In this document: one piece after another, positions 36,832 to 61,849 of the stretch
Position numbering within the stretch: position 1 is the first letter of the stretch
Layout of the letters: each line of letters begins with the position of its first letter
Assembly (NCBI RefSeq): GCF_002102355.1
Contig: NZ_LQPT01000081.1
Location: forward strand, 62,001-126,000
Origin: Mycobacterium sherrisii
Lineage (GTDB): Bacteria; Actinomycetota; Actinomycetes; Mycobacteriales; Mycobacteriaceae
DNA length: 64,000 bases
Direction: 5' to 3'
Position numbers and translations under genes: made by a program
Notes under the pieces: model-generated
What the model saw: only the letters and a program-made list of their open reading frames with translations
Told to the model about the DNA's origin: nothing
The model's database searches: none

Positions 36832-36850
36832 TGCGGGTAACTTTACAGTA
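36832..36850. promoter_or_regulatory. TACTGTA-N9-G(T/C)A element, site 1 of 6
   Basis: On the minus strand this reads TACTGTAAAGTTACCCGCA, matching the element at 61831 at 14 of 19 positions. It lies in the divergent region between a P450 gene and the carboxyltransferase gene. It is the only copy whose right end reads GCA instead of GTA. Confidence 0.5.
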
Positions 36851-36940
36851 AGCAATCCAGTATGTGACCCTGCACATCGCGCGGCGATCGCAAGCGCATC
36901 GGTGGCGCGCCCGCTGGCATCCGTGAGGTAGGACTGACGC

Positions 36941-38437
36941 ATGACGAAAGCCCAGGATTGGGACGGGACGCTCGACGACCTCGAACGTCGCCGTCAGCAC
37001 GCGTGGGGAATGGGCGGGCCCGAGCGGCTCGACAAGCACCGGGCCAAGGGCAAGCTCGACGCGCGCGCCCGCATCGAGCACCTGCTCGACCCCGGCACCT
37101 TTCGCGAAATCGGCACCCTGGTGGGCGGCGACGTCGCGGCCGACGCGCTGATCGTCGGGTCCGGGTCGATCAATGGTTCCCCGGTGATGCTGGGCGCCGA
37201 GGACTTCACCACCATGGCCGGCAGCATCGGCCCCGGCGGCAACTCCAAGCGCTACCGGATCGCCGAGCTGGCGCTGCGCGACAAAATTCCGCTGGTGATG
37301 CTGCTCGAGGGCGCGGGGTTTCGGCCGACCGGCGGGCATTACGGACGCACCCCCACCGACCTGCTCGCCCAGGCGCAGTGCTCGGGCCGGGTACCGACGG
37401 TTGCCGCGGTGCTCGGCCCGTCGGCCGGGCACGGTGCGCTGGTGGCCCCGGTGTGCGACTTTCGCATCATGAGCCGACAGGGCGCGATCTTCACCGCCGG
37501 CCCGCCCGTCGTCAAAGAGTCCACCGGAGAAGAGATTTCGAAGGAGGATCTCGGCGGCCCCGACGTCGCGCTGCCCAGCGGAGTAATCCACAACGTGGCC
37601 GAGGACGACGAGGCCGTCCTTGCCGACATCCGGCGCTACCTGTCCTACTTTCCGCCCAGCGCCTGGTCGTACCCGCCGGCGCTGCCCGCGGACCAGGACA
37701 GTCGACCGCGGCCTACGCCGGAACTGCTCGACATCGTCTCGCGCGACAACCGCCGTGTCTACGACATGCGCGCGGTGCTCGACGTGGTCTTCGATCGCCC
37801 CGATTGGTTCGAGGTGCAGCCACGGCTGGGCACCGCGATCATCTGCGCCTTGGCCCATCTCGGTGGCCATCCCGTCGCGGTCGTCGCCAATCAGCCACAG
37901 GTGCTTGCCGGTTCGATCGACGCCGCGGCGGCGGACAAGGCCGCGCATTTCATCATGGTGGCGGACTCCTTCCACCTGCCGATCGTCTTTCTCGCCGACA
38001 ATCCCGGCATGCTGCCGGGCAGCCGGTCCGAACGCAGCGGCGTCCTGCGGGCCGGTGCGCGGATGTTCGCCGCCCAGACGGCGGCGACCACGTTGAAGCT
38101 GCACGTGACGCTGCGTAAGGCGTACGGGTTCGGCTCAATGGTGATGTCGCTGTTGGGTTTCGACCACCAGGTAGCGACGTTCGCCTATCCGGGAGCGACG
38201 ATGGGGGCGATGAGCGCCGCCGCGTTGAGCCGGGCGTCGCACGCCGGGGAGGATCTGGCCGAGAAACTGCGCAACGCCGAGTTGCAGGCGTCCTACCGGT
38301 CGGCCGAAGGTATGGGATTCGACGAGCTCATCGATCCCCGCGAGACGCGGGATGCGTTGCTGGCGGCCCTGCTGCGCGGGTTGTCCAGCCGTCAGGCCGC
38401 CGCCGCGCCGGTGACGCGCACCGTGATCATGCCCTGA
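36941..38437 (+). CDS. Acyl-CoA carboxylase carboxyltransferase (AccD-like)
   Basis: This 498-residue protein has both halves of the biotin-dependent carboxyltransferase crotonase fold. The N-half contains KGKLDARARIEHLLDPGTF and the GGHYGRTPTDLLAQAQCSGRVPTVAAVLG region. The C-half contains FLADNPGMLPG, RKAYGFGSMVM and GATMGAMSAAAL. It would transfer carboxylate from biotin to an acyl-CoA. No biotin carboxylase or carrier protein is in the window, so it must borrow one. GAGGTAGGA precedes the ATG. Confidence 0.87.
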   Translation: MTKAQDWDGTLDDLERRRQHAWGMGGPERLDKHRAKGKLDARARIEHLLDPGTFREIGTLVGGDVAADALIVGSGSINGSPVMLGAEDFTTMAGSIGPGGNSKRYRIAELALRDKIPLVMLLEGAGFRPTGGHYGRTPTDLLAQAQCSGRVPTVAAVLGPSAGHGALVAPVCDFRIMSRQGAIFTAGPPVVKESTGEEISKEDLGGPDVALPSGVIHNVAEDDEAVLADIRRYLSYFPPSAWSYPPALPADQDSRPRPTPELLDIVSRDNRRVYDMRAVLDVVFDRPDWFEVQPRLGTAIICALAHLGGHPVAVVANQPQVLAGSIDAAAADKAAHFIMVADSFHLPIVFLADNPGMLPGSRSERSGVLRAGARMFAAQTAATTLKLHVTLRKAYGFGSMVMSLLGFDHQVATFAYPGATMGAMSAAALSRASHAGEDLAEKLRNAELQASYRSAEGMGFDELIDPRETRDALLAALLRGLSSRQAAAAPVTRTVIMP

Positions 38438-38447
38438 CCCGGCCCCG

Positions 38448-39491
38448 TCAGGACCCGGCCCGATAGGCGGTGAGCACCGGCTCCAGCTCGTCGGGTGTCG
38501 CGCCGTGCATGATGACCGCGTCGGCCCCATAGCCGAACTCCGTGCGGATGCGGTCCGCGCACTGCCCGGCCGAGCCGGTGGCCGAGGGCGCCAGCCATTC
38601 GTCGGGGATCAGCGTCGCGATGTGTTCGATCTGCTCCGCGGTGGCCTTGTGATCGATGCCGCCCGCGATCGAGGTCACCACCGGGTCGGCCCGAAACCGT
38701 GCCAGCACGGCGGGATCCCAGTCGTTGGTGCGCACCAGCAGGTCCCCGTAGCCCTGCAAATAGGTGGCCAACCGGGCGACGGTCTTCTTCAGCCGCAACG
38801 CCTCGGGAAGGTGGTCACCGACCGTGGCCATGCACGACCACACCCGCACACTGTCCGGGTCGCGGCCGGCTCGCTCCGCGGCGGACTTCACGGTCTTGAC
38901 GCAGCGCTGCAACGTCTCCGGGGTGAAGTAGGTGTGCAGAATGACGTCGTCGAACTCGCGGCCGCCCAGCGCGAGTGTGTCGGCGCCAAAGGCGACCAGC
39001 GCCAGCCGAATGTCTTCGTGGAACGCGGGGTCCAGGAACAGGATCGGGTATTTACCCATCGGTCCGTCGTGGTTGACGATCATCTCGCCGTGCCAGAGCC
39101 GGCGCATGACGCGAGCCCAGTCCTCCATCTGCGCGGTCGTGACCGCGGGTATGCCGAACGCGCCGTAGATCGCCGCGATCCCGCGGCCGATGCCCAGGGT
39201 GAAGCGTCCGCCGGAAAGGCGGTGCATGGTGGTCGCCCACGACGCGGTGATCAGCGGATGGCGGGTGTTGTGATTGGTTGCGGCCGTGGCGATCTGCATC
39301 CTGTCGGTCACCGCGCAGGCCGCACCGGTCAGCGACGACGCTTCCTTGACGTTCCACCGTTCGGAGATGAAGGCGGTGCCGAAGCCGAGCTGTTCGCCAC
39401 GACGCGCCTCGTCCATCAGGGCCGCCGGGCCCTCGCCGCCGGCGCCGGCCAGCAGGTAGTAGCCTAGCTCGTCGAGCACCCGATCGGTCAA
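38448..39491 (-). CDS. LLM-class F420-dependent oxidoreductase
   Basis: This 347-residue luciferase-like protein has LGFGTAFISERW near the N-terminus, the ATAATNHNTRHPLITASWATTMHRL run and GGRFTLGIGRG, all typical of the F420-dependent branch. I chose a TTG start at 39491 because AAGGAG lies 7 nt upstream; a GTG at 39479 has no such site. It converges with the carboxyltransferase gene after 10 nt. The substrate is unknown. Confidence 0.83.
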   Translation of the reverse strand: MTDRVLDELGYYLLAGAGGEGPAALMDEARRGEQLGFGTAFISERWNVKEASSLTGAACAVTDRMQIATAATNHNTRHPLITASWATTMHRLSGGRFTLGIGRGIAAIYGAFGIPAVTTAQMEDWARVMRRLWHGEMIVNHDGPMGKYPILFLDPAFHEDIRLALVAFGADTLALGGREFDDVILHTYFTPETLQRCVKTVKSAAERAGRDPDSVRVWSCMATVGDHLPEALRLKKTVARLATYLQGYGDLLVRTNDWDPAVLARFRADPVVTSIAGGIDHKATAEQIEHIATLIPDEWLAPSATGSAGQCADRIRTEFGYGADAVIMHGATPDELEPVLTAYRAGS

Positions 39492-39540
39492 TTCCAAACT
39501 CCTTGGTGGTAGCCGAAATTCCGGGCTTCGGCGCCGTCCT

Positions 39541-39564
39541 TGGTCATCGCTGTGGTCATCGCTG
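39541..39564. repeat. Tandem duplication of a 12-bp unit
   Basis: TGGTCATCGCTG occurs twice head to tail. The second copy contains the stop codon of the minus-strand hydrolase. It is a small local duplication at a gene end with no evident function. Confidence 0.8.
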
Positions 39565-40704
39565 CGCCCCCGCCACCTCGCGCAGGAATCGCTCCGAGAC
39601 CTGCTGCACGCGCCGGGAGAAGATGTGGCCGACGTGACTGCCGTCGTACCAGTAGAGCTGGCCGCCCCAGCGCTGCTGTAGCGCTTCGACGGGTTCACGC
39701 ATCGCCATGCGGTCGTGCCAGGCCCCGACGATCAGGCGCCGTGCCGGCGGGGGTGCCGGGTCGACGGCCAGCGGATCGATCACCGACGTCAGCTGGGCGA
39801 CCACCGACGATGCCAGCAGCTCCCGGAATCCCTCGCGTGCCGAGCCCCAGCGCGACAGGTGCCGAGCGATCATGGCGTTCAATCCCAGAATCGGGGTGTA
39901 GAGGCCCACCGCGTCGATCTGCCGTTCCAAGTGCGAAACCAGTGCGGCCACCGGGGTGCCCATCGAAATCCCGGACACCACAACGGCACTGGCTTGCGGC
40001 TGCACCCAGCGCACCACGGCGCGTACTTCGGACACCGCCCGCATCATGCCGGCGACATTGCCGAGCGGATCCATGTCCGGGTACGCCGGCCAGTCGCGGC
40101 GACGGCAGCCGTGCCCGGGCTGCACCGGAAGGGCGACATTGAATCCCAGGCCGTGGTGGATGCGGCCGATGCGCGACAACAGCAGATCCTCGGTACCGCC
40201 CTGACCGGCGCCATGCACCCAGATCAGCCACGGCCGCGCGGCGCCGCGATGACGGCACAGGTGCACCACCGCCCGGCACGGGCCACTCAGCCCTTCGGCC
40301 GCCAGCGTCGACGGCAACTGCGGATCGTGTTCGAAGGTCATCCGCTCGTAGCTCAGCCTGCCGAGTCGGTGTTGTCGTATCGAAGTCTCTCGCAACGGTT
40401 TTGGCGCGGCGTGCGCACCGTCGATCCCGAGCCGAAAGAGTTCCTCGGCGGCCGGTGCGCAGGCGTGCAGGGGCCGGACATCGTCGGACAGATTTCCGCT
40501 CAGCAGCGAAAAGCCGCTGAGGACCAATTCGTCCAACAAGACCTCGCCGAACTAGCGCATCCCCCGCGGCGAGGCCGGCACCCAGCCGGTCGACTCGTTC
40601 AAACCCGACACCGTGCGCGGCAACACCAGGCCCAGTTCGCGGGCCACCTCCCTGGAGAGCTCGAAGGACCGCTTCGCCAGCGCGAATCCCGCCATGCCGC
40701 TCAT
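39556..40704 (-). pseudogene. Alpha/beta hydrolase interrupted by an in-frame TAG
   Basis: From an ATG at 40704 a frame of 50 codons reads MSGMAGFALAKRSFELSREV and on to PRGMR, then a TAG at 40552-40554. The same frame continues as FGEVLLDELVLSGFSLLSG and runs 332 codons to the stop at 39556. The long part holds WVHGAG, the nucleophile elbow SGISMGTP and a late GSHVGH. No good start codon with a binding site follows the TAG; only TTG codons near 40539 are available. The simplest reading is one gene of about 382 codons with a nonsense mutation (Tyr codon to TAG). Restart or readthrough cannot be excluded. Confidence 0.7.
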
Positions 40705-40804
40705 CCCGGACCGCTAACTCAACTTGAAGCCGGCGCATCCCGGCTGATCGGCCGCTTCCGCCATTTCGCTCCTTGCCGTCCCGGGGCGGTACCGCTGAAA
40801 TCTA

Positions 40805-40823
40805 TACTGTAACGACCTTAGTA
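40805..40823. promoter_or_regulatory. TACTGTA-N9-G(T/C)A element, site 2 of 6
   Basis: TACTGTAACGACCTTAGTA has the 9-1-9 layout of the perfect palindrome at 45811. The flanks extend it to ATACT-N11-AGTAT (40804-40824). It lies 28 nt before the start of the frameshifted Rieske gene. TATACT (40803-40808) could be a -10 element. Confidence 0.5.
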
Positions 40824-40851: not shown

Positions 40852-41843
40852 GTGCGGGTCCCTTTCACCTGGAAAGTCACCGGGTGGTTCATGATCGGGT
40901 GGTCACCCGAGTTCCCCGTCGGCCAGGCCGGCCACTGCAGTATTTCGGCGAGGATCTCATCGCCTATCGCGACGAGTCCGGTCAGCTGCACGTAATGCAG
41001 GCGCATTGCAAGCACCTGGGCGCCCACATCGGACACGGCGGCAAGGTGATCGGCGACTGCGTCGAGTGCCCCTTCCACGGGTGGCGCTGGGGCCCGGACG
41101 GTACCAACCGCTACATCCCCTATCAGCCCGAACGGCCGAACCGGGTGCTACGGCTGCGGGTGTTTGAGGTTCACGAGCAGTACGACTGCGTGTTCATTTG
41201 GCACCACCCCGAAGGTAAGGAACCGCAGTGGGCGATGCCGGACATCTTTCGCAAGTTCCCGCAATTCGAGACCGATCCGGCGGCCTATTACCGGGCGTAC
41301 CCGGAGTTCTCCCGGCGCGCCGAACGAGAACCCGTGCATCCGCAGATGGTCGCGGAGAACGCACCCGACAGCGCCCACTTCGAATACGTTCACCACGCGG
41401 CCGTGACACCCCGGGTATTGGACTGGAAAATCGTCGACCACGAATGGCAGTTCACCGCCGGCTGGCCGAATGCGCGCAGCGATAACCCCGACGACCTCGC
41501 GCTGCGCTTCCACAGCCACCTGTTCGGCCTCGGCGGGGCGATCAGCGTGTTCGAGGGCGCACAGAACCATCGGCTGATCTTCACCTGCACGCCCGTCGAC
41601 GACGAATGTTCCGACCTCTTCTACTCCATCTGGTGGCCCCGCACCCCGGGCGACGCCGGCGACGTGCCGGAGGGCAAACTGCGCGACCTCATCGAAAGAC
41701 GGTTTCTGTCCACCGTGTTCGACGACCTACAGATCTGGCGCTATCAGAAGTACGTGGAAAATCCGGCGCTGTCCAAGACCGACGCGAAAGGCTATATGGC
41801 ACTGCGGAAATGGGCTACACAGTTCTACGACGTGCCGGCATGA
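40852..41843 (+). pseudogene. Rieske oxygenase (KshA-like) with a one-base frameshift near residue 26
   Basis: The start is a GTG at 40852 with GGAGGA 5 nt upstream. It opens VRVPFTWKVTGWFMIGWSPE then FPVGQA, which aligns with the N-terminus of the Rieske protein at 5290-6399. The frame then breaks at about 40928-40930, and the remainder continues in the next frame as RPLQYFGEDLIAYRDE. Adding one C (GCC-CGG instead of GCCGG) would restore a protein of about 330 residues. The downstream frame keeps CKHLG and CPFHGW Rieske ligands and ENAPDSAHFEYVHH for the mononuclear iron. A sequencing or assembly error is a real alternative. Confidence 0.8.
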
Positions 41844-42457
41844 CAAGCGGCCTCGCCGACCTTGTCGCGCCCACGCACACCGCGATCCTCACCCAGGAGT
41901 GCCCGGGCGCGGTGCTGGGGCCCGACGCCGGGCTGGCACTGCTCGCCGACGAGGCGCGCCGCGTGGCGCTGCCCAACATCGTGCGGCTCGTGCCCGCGGC
42001 GCGGGCGGCCGGGGCTCGCGTGGTGCACTGTTTGGCGCAGCGCCGCCCGGACGGCCTGGGGTCCAGCCACAACGCCAGGATCTTCGCCGGATCCGGCCGG
42101 GTGGACATCGCCCCGGGGACCCCCGGGGCGGCGCTACTCCCCGAATTGGGGCCGGAGCCAACCGATCTGGTGCTGACCCGGTGGCATGGCGTCGGACCGA
42201 TGGGCGGCACCGACCTCGACGCGGTCCTGCGCAACCTCGGGGTGACCACGATCGTCGCGGTCGGCGTGTCGCTGAACATCGCGATCCCCAACCTGGTCAT
42301 GGACGCCGTCAACGCCGCCTATCGCGTGGTGCTACCCAAAGACGCCGTCGCCGGCATACCCAGCGAGTACGGCGAGGCCGTCATCGCCAACACCCTGTCG
42401 CTGCTGGCGACCATCACCACCACCGACGAGCTGCTCGACGCATGGAAGGCCTCATGA
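41840..42457 (+). CDS. Isochorismatase-like (cysteine hydrolase fold) protein lacking the triad
   Basis: This 205-residue protein has the fold pattern of isochorismatase-like hydrolases (AILTQECPGAVLG, ARVVHCLAQRRPDG, VTTIVAVGVSLNIAIPNLVMDA). In the usual alignment the catalytic Asp is replaced in LTQE, the Lys by Arg114 in LTRWHG and the nucleophilic Cys by Ala148. Hydrolase activity of the usual type is therefore improbable. Its ATG overlaps the Rieske stop, so it should be coexpressed with that gene. The function is unknown. Confidence 0.7.
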   Translation: MTSGLADLVAPTHTAILTQECPGAVLGPDAGLALLADEARRVALPNIVRLVPAARAAGARVVHCLAQRRPDGLGSSHNARIFAGSGRVDIAPGTPGAALLPELGPEPTDLVLTRWHGVGPMGGTDLDAVLRNLGVTTIVAVGVSLNIAIPNLVMDAVNAAYRVVLPKDAVAGIPSEYGEAVIANTLSLLATITTTDELLDAWKAS

Positions 42458-42523
42458 TATGACCGACGGCGACGCCAGTAGGCCACTGGCCCGCCAGCTA
42501 CCACACCAACTGTGAGAGGTTTG

Positions 42524-44191
42524 ATGTCCGATACTGCAACACAATTCACGGTTCCCGCCGTTGCGAATGCCGTCGCGGCCGCAATCGGCGACCGCGAGTT
42601 CGTCATCCAGGGCGACCGGCGATTCAGCTACGCGCAGACCGTCGAACGATCCCACCGTCTGGCCGCCTATCTGCATTCGCGGGGTCTGGGCTGCCACACC
42701 GAGCGCTCCGCGCTTGCCGGGCACGAGACGGGTCAGGACCTGCTCGGCCTCTACGCCTACAACGGCAACGAATTCGTCGAATCGCTGCTCGGCGCCTTCG
42801 CTGCCCGGGTGGCCCCCTTCAACGTCAACTTCCGCTACGTCAAGAGCGAATTGCAGTATCTGCTGGCGGATTCGGGCGCCACCGCCCTGGTCTATCACGC
42901 CGCGTTCGCGCCGCGGGTGGCCGAGGTGCTGCCCGAGTTGCCGCGGTTGCGGGTGCTCATTCAGATCGCCGACGACTCGGGCAACGAGTTGATTCACGGG
43001 GCAGTCGATTACGAGAGCGTCATCGGGTCGACTCCGTCCGATCCGCCGCCGGTGCGGCATTCACCGGACGATCTGTACGTCCTGTACACCGGCGGCACCA
43101 CCGGCATGCCGAAGGGTGTGTTGTGGCGTCAGCACGACATCTTCATGACCTCCTTCGGCGGGCGCAACCTGATGACCGGCGAACCCGTCGACTCCGTCGA
43201 CGAGATCGTGGCGCGAGTGGCGGCCGGGCCCGGCACCAAGTTGATGATCTTGCCGCCGCTGATCCACGGGGCGGCACAGTGGAGTGTGATGACCGCCCTC
43301 ACCACCGGGCAGTCCGTCGTCTTCCCCACTGTCGTCGACCATTTGGACGCCGAAGACGTGGTGCGGACGATCGAGCGGGAACGGGTATCGGTGGTGACCG
43401 TGGTCGGAGACGCGATGGCCCGACCGTTGCTCGCCGCAATCGAGCGGGCCCGCACCGACGGCACCCCCGACGTCTCGTCGCTGGCCGTGATCGCCAACGG
43501 CGGCGCCCTGCTGACCCCCTTCGTCAAGGAACGGTTGATCGAAGCCCTGCCGAATCTCGTTGTCGTGGACGGCGTCGGATCGTCGGAGACGGGCGCGCAG
43601 ATGCATCACCTGTCCGCCTCCGGGGCGGTGTCCACCGGCACCTTCAACGCCGGCCCGGACACGTTCGTGGCGGCCGAGGACTTGTCGTCCATCCTGTCGC
43701 CGGGCCATGACGGGATCGGCTGGTTGGCACAGCGCGGCTACGTTCCGCTCGGCTACAAGGGCGACGCGGCCAAGACCGCCGCGACCTTCCCCGTCATCGA
43801 CGGTGTGCGCTACGCGATTCCGGGCGACCGGGCACGTCACCACGACAACGGCTACATCGAACTGCTGGGCCGCGATTCGGTGACGATCAACTCCGGCGGC
43901 GAGAAGATCTTTGTCGAGGAGCTCGAAACCGCGATAGCCTCGCACCCCGCGGTGGCCGACGTGGTGGTCACGGGGCGGCCGAGCGAGCGCTGGGGCCAGG
44001 AGGTCGTCGCGGTGGTCGCGCTCGCCGACGGTGCGCACGCCCAACCCGACGAACTGGTCGGCCACGCCGCAAAGTCGTTGGCGCGCTACAAGCTGCCCAA
44101 GGCAATCGTTTTCCGCCGCGCGATCGAACGCAGTCCGTCGGGCAAGGCCGACTACCGGTGGGCACGCGAGCAGGCCGTGAGCGAAGCGTGA
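42524..44191 (+). CDS. Acyl-CoA synthetase, FadD19-like
   Basis: This 555-residue ligase has YTGGTTGMPKGVLWRQ at 188-203; the WRQ extension is characteristic of the FadD17/FadD19 group that activates steroid side-chain acids. Later blocks are VVDGVGSSETG, IPGDRARHHDNG, NSGGEKIFVEELE and SPSGKADYRWA. I chose the ATG at 42524, preceded by AGAGG; a GTG at 42512 is possible. It lies 66 nt behind the isochorismatase-like gene in the same direction. Confidence 0.87.
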   Translation: MSDTATQFTVPAVANAVAAAIGDREFVIQGDRRFSYAQTVERSHRLAAYLHSRGLGCHTERSALAGHETGQDLLGLYAYNGNEFVESLLGAFAARVAPFNVNFRYVKSELQYLLADSGATALVYHAAFAPRVAEVLPELPRLRVLIQIADDSGNELIHGAVDYESVIGSTPSDPPPVRHSPDDLYVLYTGGTTGMPKGVLWRQHDIFMTSFGGRNLMTGEPVDSVDEIVARVAAGPGTKLMILPPLIHGAAQWSVMTALTTGQSVVFPTVVDHLDAEDVVRTIERERVSVVTVVGDAMARPLLAAIERARTDGTPDVSSLAVIANGGALLTPFVKERLIEALPNLVVVDGVGSSETGAQMHHLSASGAVSTGTFNAGPDTFVAAEDLSSILSPGHDGIGWLAQRGYVPLGYKGDAAKTAATFPVIDGVRYAIPGDRARHHDNGYIELLGRDSVTINSGGEKIFVEELETAIASHPAVADVVVTGRPSERWGQEVVAVVALADGAHAQPDELVGHAAKSLARYKLPKAIVFRRAIERSPSGKADYRWAREQAVSEA

Positions 44192-45810: not shown

Positions 45811-45829
45811 TACTGTAATAATTACAGTA
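45811..45829. promoter_or_regulatory. Perfect 9-1-9 palindrome TACTGTAAT-A-ATTACAGTA, site 3 of 6
   Basis: TACTGTAATAATTACAGTA is a perfect inverted repeat around one central base. It lies 59 nt upstream of the P450 start at 45888 in an AT-rich pocket. It is the most symmetrical of the six related elements and is a strong operator candidate for a homodimeric repressor. Confidence 0.7.
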
Positions 45830-45887
45830 CGATCTTGCGTAAGGCCTGCCCGTCCGCGCCGCGATGGAAGAGAGTGCTGGAGATCCA

Positions 45888-47087: not shown

Positions 47088-47100
47088 GAGTTGATGCCCA

Positions 47101-51843: not shown

Positions 51844-51845
51844 GG

Positions 51846-52676: not shown

Positions 52677-54328
52677 CGGGGCCCCTCCGCCTCGGCGCCG
52701 GTCAGCACGGTTTCCGAAAGCTGTTCTGTCGCCGCCCGTTTGGCCCACCGATAGTCAGGCTTGCCGTTGCCGAGTCGCCGCACCCGGTCGACGAAGAGGA
52801 TCGCCTTGGGCGCTTTGAAGGGGGCCAGCCGCGACTTGCACAGCGCCGCAAGTTCCGCCTCCGCGACCGCGCGGGCGCCGGGAGCCGATGCGATCAGCGC
52901 CACGACTTCCTGGCCCCACCGGTCGCTGGGCCGTCCCACCACCAACGCGTCGGCGACACCCGGGTGGGCGCGCAGTACCTCTTCGACCTCTTCGACGAAA
53001 ACCTTTTCACCGCCGGTGTTCACCACCAGGGAGTCGCGGCCGTACAGGCGCAGGGTGCCGTCCTTCTCGATGCTGGCCCGATCGCCGGGGATCACCACCC
53101 GGGTGCCGCCGATTTCGGGGAAGGTTCGCTCGGTGGCATCGCGGTCGTCGAAATAGCCGAGCGGGATTCGCCCGCTCCTGGCCACCCAGCCGATCTCCGG
53201 GTCACCCGGTCGCAGGAACCTGGTGCGATCCGCCGACACCACCGCTCCACCGTCGCGCAGCGCGAACGTCTCGCTCTGCCGGCCGCGCTGGCTGTGCCCG
53301 AAACCCATGTTGCCGGATTCCGACGAGCCGTACCCGTCGATGATGGTGAGCTGCGGGATCTTTTCCATCAGCGCGGCCTTGAACTTCGGGTTCGTTGCGG
53401 CCCCGCCTGTCCCGATCGCGTTCAGGGAGGACAAATCGTAACTGCCTCGGTGCAACTCGGCGACCAGCGGGCCGGCGTAGGCATCGCCCACCATCGTCAT
53501 CATGCCCACTCGCTCACGCTCGGCGGTCTGCCAGACCGCGCGCGCATCCAGCTTGCCGCGGCCGTCGTACAGCACCACGGTCAACCCGTTCATGATCGCC
53601 GAGAAGGCGGTCCACAGGCCGGCGGCATGCATCAGCGGCGAGACCGCGAACCATGGCGGTCCGCCAGCGCGCACCTTGGCATGGATTTCGTCGACGCCGG
53701 CGTGGTCGGCGCCCACCATCGACGCGACATACATATCACTTTGCCGCCAAAGCACACCCTTGGGCCGGCCGGTGGTGCCGCCTGTGCACATCATGATCAG
53801 GTCGTCCGGCGAGCCGGGCGCGGGGTCACCGGAACCCCCTTGTGCTATCGCGTCGTTCAGCGGTACCGCACCCGGCAGTTCGGCGTCGTCTCCGCCGTCG
53901 TCGACCGAGATGAGCAACTCGATGCCCGCCGCCGACAGCACATCGGCACAGCGAGCGCCGAGTGAGCGGTGGTAGATGACACCGCGGGGCCGCACGTAGG
54001 AAAACAGTTCAGCGATCTCCAGCGGCGAATAGCCGTAGTTCACGTTGACCGGGACGACGCGGGCCTTCAGGCATGCGATCACGGCGTCCGGGTACAGGTC
54101 GTTGAACATCAGCAAGGCGACGCGGTCCTGGCCGCACTCCCAGCGATTCAGCGTGTGTCGCTCGTGCTGCACCCCGAAACCCCTGGCGCTGAGGAAGTTT
54201 GCCAATCGACTGGTTCGGCGCGCCGCCTCGGCGAAGGTGCTACGGCGCGACCCACACACGCTCATCACGCGGTCACCGATGACGTCGGCGATGGCGTCGA
54301 AAGCCGCGCCAACAGTCCATTCGCTCAC
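52673..54328 (-). CDS. Acyl-CoA synthetase, FadD17/19-like
   Basis: This 551-residue ligase has CTGGTTGRPKGVLWRQ from residue 181, IDGYGSSESGNMGFGH, VIPGDRASIEKDGTL and NTGGEKVFVEEVE, followed by GNGKPDYRWAKRA. The WRQ extension groups it with the FadD19-like ligase at 42524. The GTG start lies 12 nt after the amidohydrolase gene upstream. It would activate the acid that the dehydrogenases of this operon oxidise. Confidence 0.87.
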   Translation of the reverse strand: MSEWTVGAAFDAIADVIGDRVMSVCGSRRSTFAEAARRTSRLANFLSARGFGVQHERHTLNRWECGQDRVALLMFNDLYPDAVIACLKARVVPVNVNYGYSPLEIAELFSYVRPRGVIYHRSLGARCADVLSAAGIELLISVDDGGDDAELPGAVPLNDAIAQGGSGDPAPGSPDDLIMMCTGGTTGRPKGVLWRQSDMYVASMVGADHAGVDEIHAKVRAGGPPWFAVSPLMHAAGLWTAFSAIMNGLTVVLYDGRGKLDARAVWQTAERERVGMMTMVGDAYAGPLVAELHRGSYDLSSLNAIGTGGAATNPKFKAALMEKIPQLTIIDGYGSSESGNMGFGHSQRGRQSETFALRDGGAVVSADRTRFLRPGDPEIGWVARSGRIPLGYFDDRDATERTFPEIGGTRVVIPGDRASIEKDGTLRLYGRDSLVVNTGGEKVFVEEVEEVLRAHPGVADALVVGRPSDRWGQEVVALIASAPGARAVAEAELAALCKSRLAPFKAPKAILFVDRVRRLGNGKPDYRWAKRAATEQLSETVLTGAEAEGPR

Positions 54329-54340
54329 GGGTCGCGCCGC

Positions 54341-55543
54341 CTAGACCGCTACTGTCGTCTTCACGCCGAGAAGGTCTAACGCGTTGTCGCGCATAATTTT
54401 TCGGACCTCCGATGCGCTGAAGTCGCTGAGTTCATCGGCGAACGACACCGGCGACTCTAGCCCTTCGCCGTGCGGCCAGTCGGAGCCGAACAGGATCTTG
54501 TCCACGCCGATGACCTCGGCCAGCTCCGGCAGATCGTCCTCGTAGTAGGGAGCGATCCAGACGTTGTTGCGCAACTGCTCCACCGGATCCTCGGGGAACT
54601 CGCGCGGCTGGGTGTTGGCCGCCTTCTTCAGTCGCTTGATCAGCCGGTGGACGAAGTACGACCCGTTTTCGATGCTGACCGCCTTGAGTTTCGGGTGGCG
54701 GGTGAACACCCCGTGCACGATCATCGAGGCCATTGTGTCGTGGATGGCGCGGTCGTCGAGCAGCACGTTGTCGAGCGGGTCCTTGGCGCCGAACCCCTCG
54801 AATGTCGCCTTGTCGCCCCACGCCGCCGCGATGTGCAGATAACCGCTGTCGGACAGGTGGAATCCGACCGGGACGCCGGCCTCGGCCAGCCGCGCCCACA
54901 CCGGGTCGTGGCTTCGGTGCCCGAGCGAGCGTGGCTTGACCAGCCCGGGCACCGGCGCCGGCCGCACCAGCACCAGTTTGGCGCCACGGCCCAGCACGAA
55001 CTCGACCTCCTCGAGCGCCTTGTCGGGATCGGCGAGTGAGATGATGGGCGCGCCGATGATCCGGTGATCGGGCCGGTCGAAGCCCCAGTCCTCGTCGAGC
55101 CACAGGTTGAACGCGTGCACCGACGCCATCGTGGCCTCGATGTCGTTCTTGAGCGCCTCCTCAACTCCGCACGCGAACGTCGGCAGCATGAACACCGTCT
55201 CGATGTCCTGGGTGTCCATCACCGCGATGCGCGCTTCGCGGTTCTGATACTCCGGGTGTTCGCCCAGACGCTCGACCTTCATCAGCGACGCCGGATCGAC
55301 GCCCTCGGGGATCTCGCCCCGGAACAGCAGGTCCAGGCAGCCCGGCACGATGATCGGATCGAAGGTCGGGTTGGGAACAAAGTGGTTAACCCGGCCCCCG
55401 ATCACGGCCAGGGTGCGCTTGCCCTGTGTGACCATCTGCACACCCCGAGTCTTGAACGCCTTGTCCAGGTGACGGGTGAAAGCATCGAGCGGTTCGTAGT
55501 AATGGTTGTCGACGTCAATCGCGTGGCAGCCCAAGCTATTCAT
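54341..55543 (-). CDS. Amidohydrolase family 2 protein
   Basis: This 400-residue protein is a paralogue of the one at 22646. It has AIDVDNHYYEPLDAF, the RPAPVPG segment, VGFHLSDSGYLH and KILFGSDWPHGEG, so the expected metal ligands are kept. GGAAGGA precedes the ATG at 55543; a longer start at 55570 lacks support. It follows the enoyl-CoA hydratase gene by 19 nt in the same operon. Confidence 0.83.
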   Translation of the reverse strand: MNSLGCHAIDVDNHYYEPLDAFTRHLDKAFKTRGVQMVTQGKRTLAVIGGRVNHFVPNPTFDPIIVPGCLDLLFRGEIPEGVDPASLMKVERLGEHPEYQNREARIAVMDTQDIETVFMLPTFACGVEEALKNDIEATMASVHAFNLWLDEDWGFDRPDHRIIGAPIISLADPDKALEEVEFVLGRGAKLVLVRPAPVPGLVKPRSLGHRSHDPVWARLAEAGVPVGFHLSDSGYLHIAAAWGDKATFEGFGAKDPLDNVLLDDRAIHDTMASMIVHGVFTRHPKLKAVSIENGSYFVHRLIKRLKKAANTQPREFPEDPVEQLRNNVWIAPYYEDDLPELAEVIGVDKILFGSDWPHGEGLESPVSFADELSDFSASEVRKIMRDNALDLLGVKTTVAV

Positions 55544-55562
55544 GGTCGTCCTTCCCCAGGTG

Positions 55563-56420
55563 TTAGGCATCGTGCGAACTGAGCGGAGGGAACTGCGGGC
55601 GTCGTTTCTGAAGGAAACTGGTGATTCCCTCGATGACGTCCGGCCGTGACATCGCCTCCTGCACCAGGACTTCGGAGTGGCCGTTCGCCTGCGCGACGTC
55701 GCGCGTGGTGTCGGCGTACAGCTGGCGCTTGATCACCGCCATCGACGCGGGCGAACAATTGGCCGCCATGTTTTCGGCGTATTCCAGCGCGCGTTTCATC
55801 AGGTCGTCCGCCGCGACGACCTCCTTGACCAGACCCAGCTCGGCGGCCTCCTCGGCGAGAAAGGTGCGCGCGCTCAGCAGCAGGTCCAGCGCAATCCCCA
55901 TGCTGGTCAGCCGGGGGAGGATCCATGAGATGCCAAATTCGGCGATCAGCCCGCGGCGGGCGAAAACGGCGCCGAACTTGGCGCCGGCGGCGGCGAAGCG
56001 GACGTCGCACATCAGTGCCTGGGTCAACCCGATGCCCACGCACGAACCGTTGATCGCCGCGACGACCGGCTTGCGCAGCGTGGTCAGGAAGTGGGGCGGC
56101 CGGTCGCCGACCAGTTCGGCGAGGTTGGTCTGTCCGGCCTTGTCCAGGGAGTTGCCGACCTTGTCGGCGTCGCCCGGCCCGCCCAGGTAGGCGCCGGCGC
56201 AAAACCCCCGGCCCCGGCCGGTCAACACGATCACCCGGATCGCGGGATCGTTGTCGGCGCGGTCGATCGCGGCGTAGAACCCGGTGGCGATGTCGGGACC
56301 CCACGCGTTGAGACGTTCCGGGCGATTCAGGGTCACCACGGCGACACCGCTGTCCATGGCCTCGTAGAGCACCGCGTCGCCGGCCGGAAAGTCCTGGGAG
56401 GCACCATCGCTGCCGGGCAT
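55563..56420 (-). CDS. Enoyl-CoA hydratase/isomerase family protein
   Basis: This 285-residue crotonase-fold protein has TLNRPERLNAWGPD, GRGRGFCAGA for the oxyanion hole and AINGSCVGIGLTQALMCDVRFA. The ISWILPRL and LGLVKEVV blocks also fit. It probably hydrates or isomerises an unsaturated acyl-CoA. The start is either the ATG at 56420 or an in-frame GTG at 56432 that abuts GGAGG too closely. It is the first gene of the minus-strand operon and has a TACTGTA-type element upstream. Confidence 0.87.
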   Translation of the reverse strand: MPGSDGASQDFPAGDAVLYEAMDSGVAVVTLNRPERLNAWGPDIATGFYAAIDRADNDPAIRVIVLTGRGRGFCAGAYLGGPGDADKVGNSLDKAGQTNLAELVGDRPPHFLTTLRKPVVAAINGSCVGIGLTQALMCDVRFAAAGAKFGAVFARRGLIAEFGISWILPRLTSMGIALDLLLSARTFLAEEAAELGLVKEVVAADDLMKRALEYAENMAANCSPASMAVIKRQLYADTTRDVAQANGHSEVLVQEAMSRPDVIEGITSFLQKRRPQFPPLSSHDA

Positions 56421-56487
56421 CGTCCGCGGCACCTCCTCATGCTTTGACTACGGGTTTCGGTGGGGTTTCGGCCATGTGTGGTACCCA

Positions 56488-56506
56488 TACTGTATACCTA
56501 TCGGTA
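56488..56506. promoter_or_regulatory. TACTGTA-N9-G(T/C)A element, site 4 of 6
   Basis: TACTGTATACCTATCGGTA lies upstream of the enoyl-CoA hydratase operon. On the other strand it is almost identical to the element at 59186, sharing GATAGGTAT and ACAGTA with a one-base shift. Confidence 0.5.
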
Positions 56507-57262: not shown

Positions 57263-58267
57263 TCAGGTGATGAGGCCGAGTCGGCGGTACGCCGCCGTCA
57301 TCTGGACTTTGGCCTCGGCCGGCAGTTCGGCTTGCGGAGGCCGCGAGTGTGGGTAGTCACCGATCGGCAGACCGAGTAGCGACGCCGCGTATTTGAAGGC
57401 ACCGGCCCAGTGGGTGAAGTAGTCCGATCGCGCCGGATAGCAGGTCCACCACGGACCGAGGTCGAGATCGAATTGATCCAGCCCGTTGTCGCGAGCGTAA
57501 TCCATGGCCTCGAGCAGTTTGTCTCCCAACACCAGATCCCAATAGTCGGAGAACAGCCGCCGCTGCGGAGTTTCGAAGAGGTAACCCGCGGTGCCCAGCT
57601 GTGCCGGGCACACGATCCCGTCGCGCAGCCAGCCCGCCCGGTACACCGTCTTGTCGCACTCCCAGACCAGCAGACCGGGCGCAAGTTCGTGGAGCATCCG
57701 GCTGCCCGCCGGCCGGAACGCCCCTTCTTTGGTGGCGCACACTGCGGGCACCTCGGCATAGATCCGGGCGCTCTCCGCCGGGGTCAGCACGTACCCCGAG
57801 GACGGCGAGTTAAACATGCCTAAAGCGATATCCGTATGCGCCGCAACGTATTTGAAGAACCGCAGCACACCGTCGCCGCCGTGGACCTCCATCATCGGTG
57901 TTTGGATGTAGGCGATGTCGGCGCCCGCCTCCTGGGCGTGGCGCGTCAACTCGACACAATCCTTCGCCGACATCGCCGCCGTGCACGCCTGCACCACAAC
58001 GTCGGGATTGATGGCACGCGATTCCTCGATCGCCACCTCCAGCAGGTCCTTGCGCTCGTCGATGGTCAACGACCAGAATTCGGCGATTCCGCTGGTGCAC
58101 CACAACATCGGATGCCCGAGGTCGCCGATGCAGTAACGCACCAGCGTCCGGTACGCGTCCCAGTCGATGTCGTCGCCATCGGTGCCACGAAACGGCGTGT
58201 ACAGGGAGTCCCCGATGCCGCGCAATGCTCCGCGCGCCCAGGTGCGCGCCTGCGCCGCTGTCGCCAC
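57263..58267 (-). CDS. Dihydrodipicolinate-synthase-family (DapA-like) aldolase
   Basis: This 334-residue TIM-barrel protein has the predicted Schiff-base lysine K180 in VCATKEGAF and the GNSP-like block MFNSPSSG, where the conserved tyrosine of DapA is replaced by Phe152. It is longer than DapA (about 300) and lacks a lysine-pathway context. It is probably an aldolase or hydratase-aldolase of a catabolic route. The GTG start has AAGGAG 6 nt upstream. It lies 34 nt after the SDR start-side neighbour on the same strand. Confidence 0.78.
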   Translation of the reverse strand: MATAAQARTWARGALRGIGDSLYTPFRGTDGDDIDWDAYRTLVRYCIGDLGHPMLWCTSGIAEFWSLTIDERKDLLEVAIEESRAINPDVVVQACTAAMSAKDCVELTRHAQEAGADIAYIQTPMMEVHGGDGVLRFFKYVAAHTDIALGMFNSPSSGYVLTPAESARIYAEVPAVCATKEGAFRPAGSRMLHELAPGLLVWECDKTVYRAGWLRDGIVCPAQLGTAGYLFETPQRRLFSDYWDLVLGDKLLEAMDYARDNGLDQFDLDLGPWWTCYPARSDYFTHWAGAFKYAASLLGLPIGDYPHSRPPQAELPAEAKVQMTAAYRRLGLIT

Positions 58268-58301
58268 AAGTCACTCCTTCTGTCGGCCAACCGATTTGAC
58301 G

Positions 58302-59099
58302 TCAGGTGAAGTCCGAACCACCGTCGACGTTGATATTGGCTCCGGTCATGTAGGAATTGCGGCGGGAGGCCAGGAATGCGACCACCGGGCCGATCTCTTC
58401 CGGTAGACCGGCACGCGGCAGGTGCGCCGGATGCCCGAAATACTTGTCGATCGCTTCCATCAGGCGATAGGGATCGCTGCCGTCGACGCCGACCGAGATC
58501 GCCCAACCCACCAGCGACTCCGACGCAATGCTGCCCGGCGACACCACGTTGACCAGGATTTCGTCCTTGGCGAGCGAGAGCGACAGGTTTTTCGAGACGC
58601 TGGTCAGCATCGACTTGGCCGCGGTGTAGGCGGGCAGCAGCACGCTTTGCCGCTGCGTCGAGTGCGCCGAGAAGTTGACGATCCGCGCCCAGGCGGCGTT
58701 GCGCAGCAACGGAAGCGCCGCGCGCACGCAGCGCACCATGCCGAGCACGCCGTCCTCCACGGCCTCGCGCCACTGATCGTCGGTGAGATCGGCAAAGGCG
58801 CCCGGCGCCCCCGGCCCGACGGTATTGATGAGCACGTTGAGTGCGCCGTCGAACCGGTCGGCGATATCGACGAAGAGCTGATCGACCGCCGCGGCATCAC
58901 CGACGTCCACGGCGAAACCCACGACGTCCGGGCTGCCCCGCTCGGCAAGCTCGGCCACGGCGGCGTCGAGAAACGCCGGTGTCCGGCCGACCAGCGCGAG
59001 CCGGGCACCGTCCTCGGCCAGACACCGGGCCGACGCCAAACCCATGCCACGACTACCACCGACGACAACCGCCGTTGCATCGGCCAGACCTAAGTCCAT
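58302..59099 (-). CDS. Short-chain dehydrogenase/reductase
   Basis: This 265-residue SDR has VVGGSRGMGLASARCL at the N-terminus, FSAHS for the catalytic serine region and AYTAAKSML for the Tyr-Lys pair. The C-terminus ends MTGANINVDGGSD. The middle NAG block reads INTVGPG, a variant seen in enoyl-reductase-like members. It heads a two-gene unit with the DapA-like gene and diverges from the TetR gene. Confidence 0.87.
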   Translation of the reverse strand: MDLGLADATAVVVGGSRGMGLASARCLAEDGARLALVGRTPAFLDAAVAELAERGSPDVVGFAVDVGDAAAVDQLFVDIADRFDGALNVLINTVGPGAPGAFADLTDDQWREAVEDGVLGMVRCVRAALPLLRNAAWARIVNFSAHSTQRQSVLLPAYTAAKSMLTSVSKNLSLSLAKDEILVNVVSPGSIASESLVGWAISVGVDGSDPYRLMEAIDKYFGHPAHLPRAGLPEEIGPVVAFLASRRNSYMTGANINVDGGSDFT

Positions 59100-59185: not shown

Positions 59186-59204
59186 TACGATAGGTATTAC
59201 AGTA
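59186..59204. promoter_or_regulatory. TACTGTA-N9-G(T/C)A element, site 5 of 6
   Basis: On the minus strand this reads TACTGTAATACCTATCGTA. It lies between the divergent SDR and TetR genes, about 160 nt before the TetR start, as expected for autoregulation and control of the SDR unit. Confidence 0.55.
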
Positions 59205-59365
59205 GCAGAGGAAACTACGCACGAAAGCCCGGTTGACGGTCATATCCGAATGGCGACACGCCCACATATGTGCAGGTGGGAGCACCTACGCCGGTAGATT
59301 TGGTGCAGTCGGCGGCGCGGCCGTAGACCGTACGCACAGCATACAGTTTGATGGAGGTGCCCGTA

Positions 59366-60154
59366 GTGGCCAAGCAGGCAACCGCTGATAAGCGTCAGCG
59401 ACGCGAACGCGGATCCATCAACCCCGACGACATCATCAGCGGCGCATTCGAACTCGCGGAACAGGTTTCGATCGACAACCTGAGCATGCCGCTGCTCGGC
59501 AAACACCTCGGCGTCGGAGTGACGAGCATCTACTGGTATTTCCGTAAGAAGGACGACCTGCTCAACGCGATGACCGACCGCGCGCTGAGCAAGTACGTGT
59601 TCGCCACGCCGTACGTCCAAGCCAGCGATTGGCGCGAAACCCTGCGCAACCACGCGCGCTTGATGCGTAAGACGTTCATGGGCAACCCGATTCTGTGCGA
59701 TCTGATTTTGATTCGCGCGGCACTGAGCCCCAAGGCCGCCCGGCTGGGCGCCCAGGAGATGGAAAAGGCGATCGCCAATCTCGTCGAGGCCGGCCTGTCA
59801 CCGGAGGACGCGTTTGACACCTACTCCGCGGTATCCGTACACGTCCGTGGCTCAGTGGTTTTGCAACGGCTCTACGAGAAGAACCAGTCCTCGGATGCCG
59901 GTTCACGCGCCATCGAGGACGCCGTCTCGATCGACCCGGAGAAGACGCCGCTGCTGGCCCAGGTGAGCCGGATAGGGCACCGGATCGGGGCGCCCGACGA
60001 GACCAACTTCGAGTACGGCCTCACCTGCATCCTCGACCACGCCGCCCGGCTGATCGAAGAGGGGGCAAAGGTTAGGTCGGGGGCCAAATCGGGTTCCCGG
60101 CCGCGCAAGGCAACGAAATCGTCCCCCCGCTCCAAAGCGACCGCGGAACGCTAG
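59366..60154 (+). CDS. TetR-family transcriptional regulator
   Basis: This 262-residue regulator has its helix-turn-helix in MPLLGKHLGVGVTSIYWYF within about residues 25-75, an unusually basic N-terminus (KQATADKRQRRERGS) and a basic, Ser/Lys-rich C-terminal tail (SGSRPRKATKSSPRSK). The GTG at 59366 follows GGAGG at 59353-59357; earlier TTG and ATG codons lack a site. Its location beside one of six related elements makes it the best candidate for the factor binding them, which is inferred. Its ligand is unknown. Confidence 0.87.
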   Translation: MAKQATADKRQRRERGSINPDDIISGAFELAEQVSIDNLSMPLLGKHLGVGVTSIYWYFRKKDDLLNAMTDRALSKYVFATPYVQASDWRETLRNHARLMRKTFMGNPILCDLILIRAALSPKAARLGAQEMEKAIANLVEAGLSPEDAFDTYSAVSVHVRGSVVLQRLYEKNQSSDAGSRAIEDAVSIDPEKTPLLAQVSRIGHRIGAPDETNFEYGLTCILDHAARLIEEGAKVRSGAKSGSRPRKATKSSPRSKATAER

Positions 60155-60173: not shown

Positions 60174-61070
60174 TCAGCCTTCGGGTTCGGGTACGTGGAA
60201 GTGCTCGTCACGCAGCCGGAACGCCTCCTTGGTGCCGTGCCGGGCGCGCGTCTTGACGAAGTTGAACTCATCCGGCCCGAATTGCAGGTTGGTGCCGTAG
60301 GCGTGGAATAGATAGCTCGCGACTTCCTCGCCGTTGTAGGCCTGCGTCTGCTCGACGAGACGGAACGCCTCCTTGGCGATCACGACACCGTCGGCAGGCA
60401 TCTTGGCCGCCTTCTCGGCCCAATAGCGGGCACGCGCGGTCACGACGCCGGGATCGCAGGTCTCGGTGAAGATTCCGAGGTGCTCGATCTCGCCGGCCGC
60501 GATGACATCGCCGGTCAGCAGCAGCCGGCGGGCCAACACCGGCCCCAACCGGTGGAAGAACATGTGCAGGCTGCCGAGCGCCGGACCCAAAAAACGCGTC
60601 GCCGGCATCCCGATTTTGGTATCGCGGGCGATCACCGAGATGTCGGTCATCAGCGCCATCTCGAACCCGCCGCCCAGGGCATAGCCGCCGATCTCCCCCA
60701 CCGTGACCTTGGGAAAGCCCATGAAGTTGTGGTAGAAGCCAAATGACTTGCGGTCCACGGTGAGTCGCCTGCGCTGACTCGGCCGGCGCTGGGCGCTCGC
60801 CTCGGCCCCGTCGCGCTTGTCGCTCTTGTCCCCGTACCAGCCGTAGGCGTTGTTCATGTCGGCACCGGTGGAGAAGACGCCTTGGGCGCCGCGCAGCAAC
60901 ACCACCGTGATGTCGTCGTCGTCGGCCGCGTAATCCAGGCAGCGGCCGATGGCCTCCCGCATCGTCGCGTCATAAGAGTTGCGCCGCTTGGGATTGTTCA
61001 GCGTGATCGTGGCGATGCGCCGGGCGGAGTCGACCTCGAACAGCACCCGATCGTCGTGCGAGGCGGTCAT
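60174..61070 (-). CDS. Enoyl-CoA hydratase/isomerase family protein
   Basis: This 298-residue crotonase has TLNNPKRRNSYD, QGVFSTGADM for the oxyanion hole and EIGGYALGGGFEMALMTD. A charged insertion (YGDKSDKRDGAEASAQRRPSQ region) follows the first oxyanion block and makes it longer than the usual 260. The ATG overlaps the thioesterase stop. The reaction is probably hydration or isomerisation of an unusual acyl-CoA. Confidence 0.85.
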   Translation of the reverse strand: MTASHDDRVLFEVDSARRIATITLNNPKRRNSYDATMREAIGRCLDYAADDDDITVVLLRGAQGVFSTGADMNNAYGWYGDKSDKRDGAEASAQRRPSQRRRLTVDRKSFGFYHNFMGFPKVTVGEIGGYALGGGFEMALMTDISVIARDTKIGMPATRFLGPALGSLHMFFHRLGPVLARRLLLTGDVIAAGEIEHLGIFTETCDPGVVTARARYWAEKAAKMPADGVVIAKEAFRLVEQTQAYNGEEVASYLFHAYGTNLQFGPDEFNFVKTRARHGTKEAFRLRDEHFHVPEPEG

Positions 61071-61744
61071 CTCGCGGACTCCTTTCGCCGCCTGCCGAAT
61101 CGGTATCCGGTCAGCTTGTCCGGCTGTGACGCCAGGGTTTCGACGCTGCCGATGCACAGCACGTCGTCGGCGCGCAGCAGTCGCGCCGTCGATGCGATGC
61201 CACGCTCGACGTGCGACCGGGCGATGTCGAACCGCAGCTCGGTCAGCAATGGCGTCGGCCGCCGAAACGACACGTGCAGCGAGCGCGTCTTGCCCGACAG
61301 TCCCATCACGCAGCTGTGGTGCTGGATGACGCAATCGAAGAACACGGCGAGAAAGCCGCCGTGCACCAGTCCGGGCGGACCCTCGTAGACCAGCGGGAAG
61401 ACGACCCGGCCCGTCGCCCCCTCGGGGTCAAGGTGATCGAACTCGTACTCCGGAAAGGCCGGATTGTAGGCGCCGATGTCGGTGGCGTGATTGAGATAAA
61501 CACGGCGCGCATCGTCATCGACCGCACCGATGCGCGGCGTCTGGTCCGGCGGTGCCGCCTTTGTCAGCTCGTCTTCCCATTCCCCGAACTTGGCCAGCAT
61601 GGCGTCCACCGTCGGGTGCGGATGTTCCAGCGACACCAGCAGTGAACTCAACCGCCGCATCGCGGCGGCGGCCGCCACGGTCTGAGGCAGGGGCACCTCG
61701 CCGAACTTGGGGTCATCCGTGCGCGTCGGTGCACCTTCGGTCAT
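61067..61744 (-). CDS. Hotdog-fold (PaaI-like) thioesterase
   Basis: This 225-residue protein has a helical N-terminal part of about 110 residues and a C-terminal hotdog domain with GPPGLVHGGFLAVFFDCV and SLHVSFRRPTPLLTELRF. It would hydrolyse an acyl-CoA. It is translationally coupled to the crotonase downstream and diverges from another crotonase gene. Confidence 0.82.
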   Translation of the reverse strand: MTEGAPTRTDDPKFGEVPLPQTVAAAAAMRRLSSLLVSLEHPHPTVDAMLAKFGEWEDELTKAAPPDQTPRIGAVDDDARRVYLNHATDIGAYNPAFPEYEFDHLDPEGATGRVVFPLVYEGPPGLVHGGFLAVFFDCVIQHHSCVMGLSGKTRSLHVSFRRPTPLLTELRFDIARSHVERGIASTARLLRADDVLCIGSVETLASQPDKLTGYRFGRRRKESAR

Positions 61745-61830
61745 GCGACTCTCTTCCGCCCGGGTGCGACCCGGTTGTTCCGTCGGCAGCGTTTACTTGA
61801 TAACTTATACAGCGTATCAATCGTATTGCC

Positions 61831-61849
61831 TACTGTATGGGTAACCGTA
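61831..61849. promoter_or_regulatory. TACTGTA-N9-G(T/C)A element, site 6 of 6
   Basis: TACTGTATGGGTAACCGTA lies in the divergent region between the thioesterase and crotonase genes, 25 nt before the crotonase GTG. The surrounding DNA is AT-rich. Confidence 0.55.

Follow-up and report, generated by a model that had tools for sequence, protein, structure and literature searches.

A conserved 19-bp inverted repeat as the putative operator of a TetR-family regulator in a catabolic gene cluster of Mycobacterium sherrisii

A 64,000-bp stretch of the Mycobacterium sherrisii genome (contig NZ_LQPT01000081.1, positions 62,001 to 126,000, or C81:62001-126000; referred to below as the window and numbered from its first base) includes a cluster of catabolic genes whose promoters carry copies of a short element. 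This raises the question of whether the copies are operators and, if so, which regulator recognises them. A preliminary description had listed six copies of a 19-bp element, TACTGTA-N9-G(T/C)A, and proposed that they define a TetR-controlled regulon covering the right half of the cluster. The findings given here suggest that the elements are very probably operators of the TetR-family regulator encoded at 59348-60154, which would be an autoregulated repressor of the surrounding catabolic cluster.

The pattern TACTGTA-N9-GYA was found in the window at exactly the six positions originally listed, 36832, 40805, 45811, 56488, 59186 and 61831, giving seven strand-matches since the copy at 45811 is a perfect palindrome. 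Five of the six end in GTA, as had been noted, and the exception at 36832 ends in GCA. In 100 dinucleotide-preserving shuffles of the window the mean number of matches was 0.00 and the largest 0, and each of the seven occurrences of TACTGTA in the window (0.39 expected) lies inside one of the six elements. A search of the whole genome (5,562,166 bases in 128 contigs) revealed the pattern at only seven places, the six in the window and one at C102:9769. A control with the pattern written backwards was commoner genome-wide (15 strand-matches, 8+7, versus 8, 5+3); hence the signal resides in clustering and placement and not in total number.

The perfect symmetry of the 45811 copy points to a different register and, as judged by the sequences, the actual motif is an inverted repeat of 19 bp, TACTGTA-N5-TACAGTA. 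The register first described needs changing accordingly. With up to three mismatches allowed, the palindrome occurs at eight sites in the window, as compared with 0.06 expected, namely 28959, 32704, 36844, 40805, 45811, 56488, 59186 and 61831. All six elements first reported are therefore real, but their number rises to eight with the addition of 28959 and 32704, and the copy at 36832 is replaced by 36844-36862, which scores 22.2 bits in the palindrome register against 14.1 bits for 36832. The 36832 copy was dropped as a separate site, being an overlapping weaker register with one half-site in common; its outer half-site sequence is also retained in the 20-kb locus L192 of a diverged genome, G026. 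A symmetric matrix made from the eight window sites and C102:9769 placed the eight at ranks 1-8 in the window (eighth 18.1, next 14.1), a ranking that is not independent since the same sites helped to build the matrix. With the two new sites the regulon reaches about 8 kb farther left, its left edge lying at about 28 kb and not at 36.8 kb, and no palindrome with up to three mismatches is present in the left 28 kb of the window.

Genome-wide, the palindrome with up to three mismatches occurs at 25 places, comprising the eight in the window, C102:9769 and 16 elsewhere. The corresponding backward-pattern control gave 104 per strand, more than the palindrome itself, and the number alone is therefore no proof. 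Gene placement of nine of the 16 other palindromes put six inside called genes and three between genes (L011, L012 and L013). The L011 palindrome lies between ApbA and alanine-dehydrogenase genes and that of L013 ahead of an SDR gene; neither is claimed as a member of the regulon.

The sites are given here as read on the forward (+) strand, apart from the perfect palindrome TACTGTAATAATTACAGTA at 45811..45829, for which no strand applies. The leftmost, TACCGTAAGTACTACCGGA (28959..28977), lies about 20 bp ahead of the acyl-CoA dehydrogenase gene 27766-28938 (-), and TACTGAGCCTCTTACGGTA (32704..32722) lies between the Rieske ferredoxin gene 32298-32657 (-) and a cytochrome P450 gene at 32737 (+). 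TACAGTAAGCAATCCAGTA (36844..36862) separates the P450 gene 35474-36709 (-) from the carboxyltransferase gene at 36941 (+), and TACTGTAACGACCTTAGTA (40805..40823) separates 39695-40738 (-) from the gene for a KshA-like Rieske oxygenase (+, likely start 40857). The 45811 site is 34 bp ahead of a P450-CaiB-thiolase operon, TACTGTATACCTATCGGTA (56488..56506) is 55 bp ahead of the crotonase gene 55563-56432 (-), and TACTGTATGGGTAACCGTA (61831..61849) is 25 bp ahead of the enoyl-CoA hydratase/isomerase gene at 61875 (+). TACGATAGGTATTACAGTA (59186..59204) lies between the SDR gene 58302-59099 (-) and the TetR gene at 59348 (+), in agreement with the earlier placement of one element between the TetR gene (there 59366) and its divergent neighbour. 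The promoters had been described as mostly divergent, which holds for four of the original six; 45811, however, is between two + strand genes, and 56488, which does precede a - strand operon, is not divergent, the next gene having its 3' end towards the site.

In mechanical calling of open reading frames (ORFs), the sites at 40805 and 56488 fall just inside over-long ORFs, the former TTG-started with a likely true start at GTG 40857 and the latter low-scoring and encoding 147 aa; both sites are read as intergenic. With a 60-nt margin inside called starts counted as non-coding, all eight window sites score as non-coding. The same margin was applied, with mechanical gene calls, to a sample of 20 loci chosen for holding sites plus the window; non-coding sequence so defined amounts to 13% of the bases and takes in 50 of the 64 sites. 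The remaining 14 were scored as coding; several of these are probably over-long ORF calls, such as that over L158:17401, a site ahead of a crotonase gene starting near 17440, and were left in the count.

Spread of exact-pattern hits through coding sequence, which the preliminary description had named as the outcome that would speak against a regulon, was not seen in the genome scan; six of the seven places are in cluster promoters and the seventh also lies ahead of a gene. This last, C102:9769 (L007:1501-1519), the only exact-pattern site outside the cluster, has a thiolase gene about 50 bp downstream and a bicupin gene on its divergent side. In a relative (G234), the same site precedes a 96%-identical thiolase, and the bicupin gene is not at that place.

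The proposed regulator of all the sites is encoded at 59348..60154 (+; first in-frame ATG at 59351). Its product has a TetR_N domain (PF00440, 46.8 bits against a cut-off of 24, residues 29-75) and a C-terminal TetR_C_1 domain (PF02909, 41.8 bits). An AlphaFold2 model (mean pLDDT 80.5, pTM 0.70) was compared by Foldseek, and all 50 matches listed were Tet repressors or engineered variants (TMt 0.63-0.79, 20-25% identity). As judged by sequence evidence, the helix-turn-helix domain, the all-helical fold with a C-terminal ligand/dimer domain and the palindrome in the gene's own promoter place the protein in the TetR family. Within its own genome it matches itself alone at E≤1e-20 (8 of 45 first-look candidates scored). 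The recognition segment VGVTSIYW(Y/H)FR is common to 20 of 21 TetR sequences compared, L184 having VGVTSIYWHVR.

Orthologous promoters in related species keep the sites, as the preliminary description had suggested checking. Among the best 80 relatives found, all titled Mycobacterium or Mycolicibacterium and with M. triplex and M. scrofulaceum among the nearest, 79 could be tested for the region upstream of the TetR gene (L070, which ends at a contig edge, was left out). In 78 of the 79, the 350 bp upstream of the TetR start contain a site, and the 19-mer is identical in 73. A site no more than 400 bp from one or other end of the TetR gene is present in 54 of a further 56 loci. Footprint alignments, from which relatives without an anchorable gene start were dropped, gave site identities of 0.989 versus 0.417 in the rest of the promoter for 59186 (79 of the 80 relatives kept), 0.988 versus 0.660 in the rest of the region for 61831 (67 kept) and 1.000 versus 0.500 for 56488 (20 kept), and when the three promoters were aligned with gaps, no 19-bp window was better conserved than the site, which ranked first or joint first. 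These values indicate that, at the sequence level, the sites are under purifying selection. The 36844 site is identical in L115, L117 and L118 and near-identical in L192, and the sites at 28959, 32704 and 36844 all have counterparts before the same genes in L192, that of 28959 being ahead of the acyl-CoA dehydrogenase ortholog.

The genus sample comprises 297 Mycobacterium genomes. A TetR match at E≤1e-20 was obtained in 241 of them, strong in 232 and weak (E ~1e-43 to 1e-61) in nine. Three or more exact-pattern matches were found in 209 of the 232 genomes with a strong match, in none of the nine with a weak one and in two of the 56 with none; hence only 2 of the 65 genomes with no or a weak match reach this number (Fisher p 3e-42, a value that ignores phylogeny). 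At E below 1e-225, none of the 56 TetR-lacking genomes is listed for the cluster thiolase, nine being listed at ~1e-194 to 1e-208, which is paralog level; TetR and the cluster are therefore partly co-inherited. G026 helps to tell the two apart. Within its 20 kb, locus L192 retains TetR together with only part of what the window's right half contains (the acyl-CoA dehydrogenases, one P450 and the carboxyltransferase), and a site precedes every one of these remaining units. The TetR gene of L192 itself lies behind the carboxyltransferase gene in the same orientation and lacks its own site at up to three mismatches.

Beyond the nearest relatives, a TetR match at E≤1e-30 is present in 48 of 397 genomes of the order, from 8 of 85 genera. 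In genera g2 and g8, with TetR at 62-68% identity, sites precede orthologs of the same enzymes in a changed gene order. The G379 homolog, from another family and 36% identical, has a perfect TACTGTAAGCCTTACAGTA 104 bp upstream, the top-ranking 19-bp inverted repeat of the 400 bp ahead of that gene, and the G373 homolog (42% identity) has a two-mismatch site upstream. The remote homologs with a site (L168 and L174) sit in other gene neighbourhoods in other genera.

Taken together, the palindrome, its promoter placement, purifying selection on the sites, genus-wide co-occurrence with TetR and the near-invariant recognition helix form the basis of the regulator assignment, and argue with high confidence for a real, conserved operator set with a cognate TetR. 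A dimer of the 59348 protein would bind the 19-bp TACTGTA-N5-TACAGTA in its own promoter, and the same protein would bind at least seven other cluster promoters and the distant thiolase promoter at C102:9769. Repression and autoregulation are expected from TetR-family precedent (KstR, KstR2 and BkaR), as is release of the protein on occupation of its C-terminal pocket by a pathway intermediate, probably an acyl-CoA or a cyclic acid. The proposed TetR-controlled regulon thus gains support from conservation, co-occurrence and remote homologs.

Several findings weigh against this assignment. Among close relatives, L060 (M. lepraemurium) has no site upstream of TetR, two other cluster sites remaining, and L047 (a short locus) and L148 have none within 400 bp of the TetR gene. 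A site with up to three mismatches is present within 400 bp upstream of only nine of 25 diverged or remote TetR homologs, and close upstream of only two of eight remote homologs at 36-43% identity. Six of the other 16 (L158, L159, L181, L182, L187 and L192) lie behind a cluster gene of the same strand that carries a site in its promoter, and ten (L157, L160, L164, L166, L169-L173 and L184) have neither their own nor a cluster-promoter site. Two genomes without a TetR match, G075 and G115, have five pattern matches each, and 23 of the 232 genomes with a TetR ortholog have fewer than three exact matches. Four of these 23 were inspected; looser sites were found in three (L192-L194), and the fourth, G162, has none with up to three mismatches in its 18.7-kb locus (L164). 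The partial co-inheritance of TetR and cluster and the lack of phylogenetic correction in the statistics are further such points. Lastly, in the diverged Mycobacterium genomes G245, G607 and G102 (L181, L182 and L187) a second TetR, 51-52% identical and with nearly the same recognition helix, lies in the same cluster beside the 45864-type P450 and could, by its sequence, share the sites there; the window genome showed one TetR only.

The foremost alternative, though an unlikely one, is that some other regulator, with its gene elsewhere in the genome or the cluster, uses the sites as its operators and has TetR merely as one of its targets. The TetR promoter itself has a site while 16 of the 25 diverged homologs have none within 400 bp, and two other regulators are encoded in the window, a GntR/FCD protein at 10415-11299 and a protein with a TetR_N domain within 21127-22569. 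Both, however, lie among other catabolic genes in the left 28 kb, which is free of the palindrome at up to three mismatches. Moreover, motif abundance follows the 59348-type TetR across the genus, the sites in L192 are kept on the genes that remain with TetR, the motif precedes two remote TetR homologs in other neighbourhoods (L168 and L174), and the recognition helix is nearly invariant.

That TACTGTA is a shared promoter element, the repeats being sigma-factor sites and not operators, is very unlikely. TACTGT fits the loose -10 hexamer TANNNT, and for several of the sites the distance to a start is about 20-55 bp. A -10 element would not, however, form a 19-bp inverted repeat with both arms conserved, is not expected to be confined to seven places in 5.56 Mb, and would not turn rare in genomes without TetR; a sigma-70 scan, made of 55500-62500 only, gave one match against 1.0 expected, nothing above chance. 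The most improbable proposal, that KstR or KstR2, the known cholesterol regulators, act at the sites or that these form a LexA-type SOS box, could draw on the KshA-like Rieske protein and CoA-type catabolic genes of the cluster and on the CTGT and ACAG arms of the E. coli LexA box, but those arms are 8 bp apart in E. coli and 7 bp apart here, the targets are catabolic and not DNA-repair genes, and the window contains 0 KstR and 0 KstR2 consensus sites.

If the 59348 protein is the regulator, its putative regulon would comprise up to 30 genes, counted by adjacency. Behind operator 28959 are two acyl-CoA dehydrogenase genes (26528..28938, -). Operator 32704 is followed by genes for a cytochrome P450 and an NDMA-dependent alcohol dehydrogenase (32737..35219, +), and on its divergent side are those for the Rieske ferredoxin, two amidohydrolase_2 proteins and an alpha/beta hydrolase (29004..32657, -), assigned by adjacency. 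Operator 36844 stands ahead of the genes for a cytochrome P450 with P450terp as its closest solved relative (35474..36709, -) and an acyl-CoA carboxyltransferase (36941..38437, +). Behind operator 40805 are an F420-dependent LLM oxidoreductase (TIGR03857) with a 347-aa protein without a family match (38448..40738, -) and, on the other side, a KshA_C Rieske oxygenase, an isochorismatase-like hydrolase and an acyl-CoA synthetase (40857..44191, +). A P450, a CaiB-type CoA-transferase and a thiolase/lipid-transfer protein (45864..49478, +) follow operator 45811, and a crotonase, an amidohydrolase_2 protein, an acyl-CoA synthetase and two acyl-CoA dehydrogenases (49578..56432, -) follow operator 56488. 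Operator 59186 precedes the SDR dehydrogenase and a DHDPS-type aldolase (57263..59099, -), and operator 61831 precedes two enoyl-CoA hydratase/isomerase genes (61875..63522, +), with a crotonase-family gene (60174..61334, -) on its divergent side.

The P450s (one nearest P450terp), KshA-like Rieske oxygenase, CoA ligases, CoA-transferase, thiolase, acyl-CoA dehydrogenases, crotonases and carboxyltransferase point to oxidative CoA-linked catabolism of a cyclic compound. Hence, as judged by gene content, the pathway is most likely one for breakdown of an alicyclic, terpenoid- or steroid-like compound. Genes for a STAS protein and a SpoIIE/HATPase/PAS/STAS multidomain protein also sit inside the catabolic region (23954-26524). 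Between operator 56488 and the aldolase gene, about 750 bp (56507-57262) contain no recognisable gene; in L180 the site adjoins the aldolase gene directly, and the gap in the window lineage may be a remnant or an insertion. In G270 and G007, the palindrome lies upstream of another P450 gene (L190:9312 and L191:9545, respectively), the product of which is 34-35% identical to the 35474 P450; this gene is on a different contig from the cluster and is a possible further regulon member.

The flanks of the sites were also scored for a third half-site (at least four of six matches). It was found at offset 12 in 27 of 128 flanks, other offsets giving 0-6 except offset 17 with 12; many of the 128 flank rows are TetR promoters and so not independent. 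For own-genome sites, 5 of 18 flanks have it at offset 12 (28959, 45811, 59186, 61831 and C102:9769), as compared with 0-3 at other offsets from 8 to 36; the 36832 half-site, with only three of six matches, is not among the five. Runner-up matrix matches 12 bp from real sites were set aside as largely self-overlap, since TACNGTA is nearly its own reverse complement. The enrichment, as seen in the sequences, is suggestive only. A wider reading, possible but rather doubtful as a whole, would be that this is a third large mycobacterial TetR catabolic regulon beside those of KstR and KstR2, present in about three quarters of sampled Mycobacterium and with remote members in other families, and that some of its operators are TACNGTA half-site arrays phased at 12 bp, which would take more than one dimer and give graded promoter strength.

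The TetR ortholog is kept in 232 of the 297 sampled Mycobacterium genomes, about three quarters, and the near-invariant recognition helix, defined operator and up to 30 putative targets make an uncharacterised catabolic pathway directly testable. The regulator could be used to find the inducer, which would point to the substrate, and the operator to list missing pathway genes such as the distant thiolase at C102:9769.

A search of open-access literature, with subscription papers and locus-tag-only mentions outside its scope, found no description of the motif or regulon. The accessible text of Balhana et al. 2015 (PMC4482099) gives 11 novel mycobacterial TetR motifs, with the regulators under M. 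tuberculosis locus names, and likewise predicts palindromes in the gaps that separate TetR genes from divergent neighbours; the motifs are given there as logo images. The letters TACTGTA/TACAGTA also occur in oligonucleotides for the lugdunin regulators, but the palindrome in the accessible part of that report (PMC11980582) is a different one of 26 bp. The tetracycline repressors TetR(A)/(D) share the TetR_N and TetR_C_1 pair and give the best PDB sequence and fold matches, but identity in the listed fold matches is 20-25% and the targets here are catabolic enzymes; identity as a tetracycline-resistance TetR was rejected (NCBIfam PRK13756, 76.5 bits against a cut-off of 265).

The cholesterol regulator KstR, named in the available text of PMC3068626, similarly exerts TetR-type control of a large catabolic gene set, but has another operator consensus, TnnAACnnGTTnnA as given in the preliminary description, with 0 occurrences in the window. 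The operator of KstR2, AnCAAGnnCTTGnT, a consensus confirmed in that text, also occurs 0 times in the window, and the remark that the new pattern resembles neither consensus is thus borne out; as far as described there, both motifs are 14-bp palindromes. Within the scope of the same text, KstR2 of Mycobacterium/Rhodococcus is the closest precedent, being a TetR-type repressor encoded inside its own catabolic cluster of CoA-linked genes, conserved among actinomycetes, with palindromic operators in divergent promoters that include its own. The regulon described here appears to be new itself but of a kind already known; it differs from that of KstR2, with a 14-bp operator at three places per genome, in its 19-bp TACTGTA-N5-TACAGTA palindrome, which recurs eight times in the cluster and at least once elsewhere.

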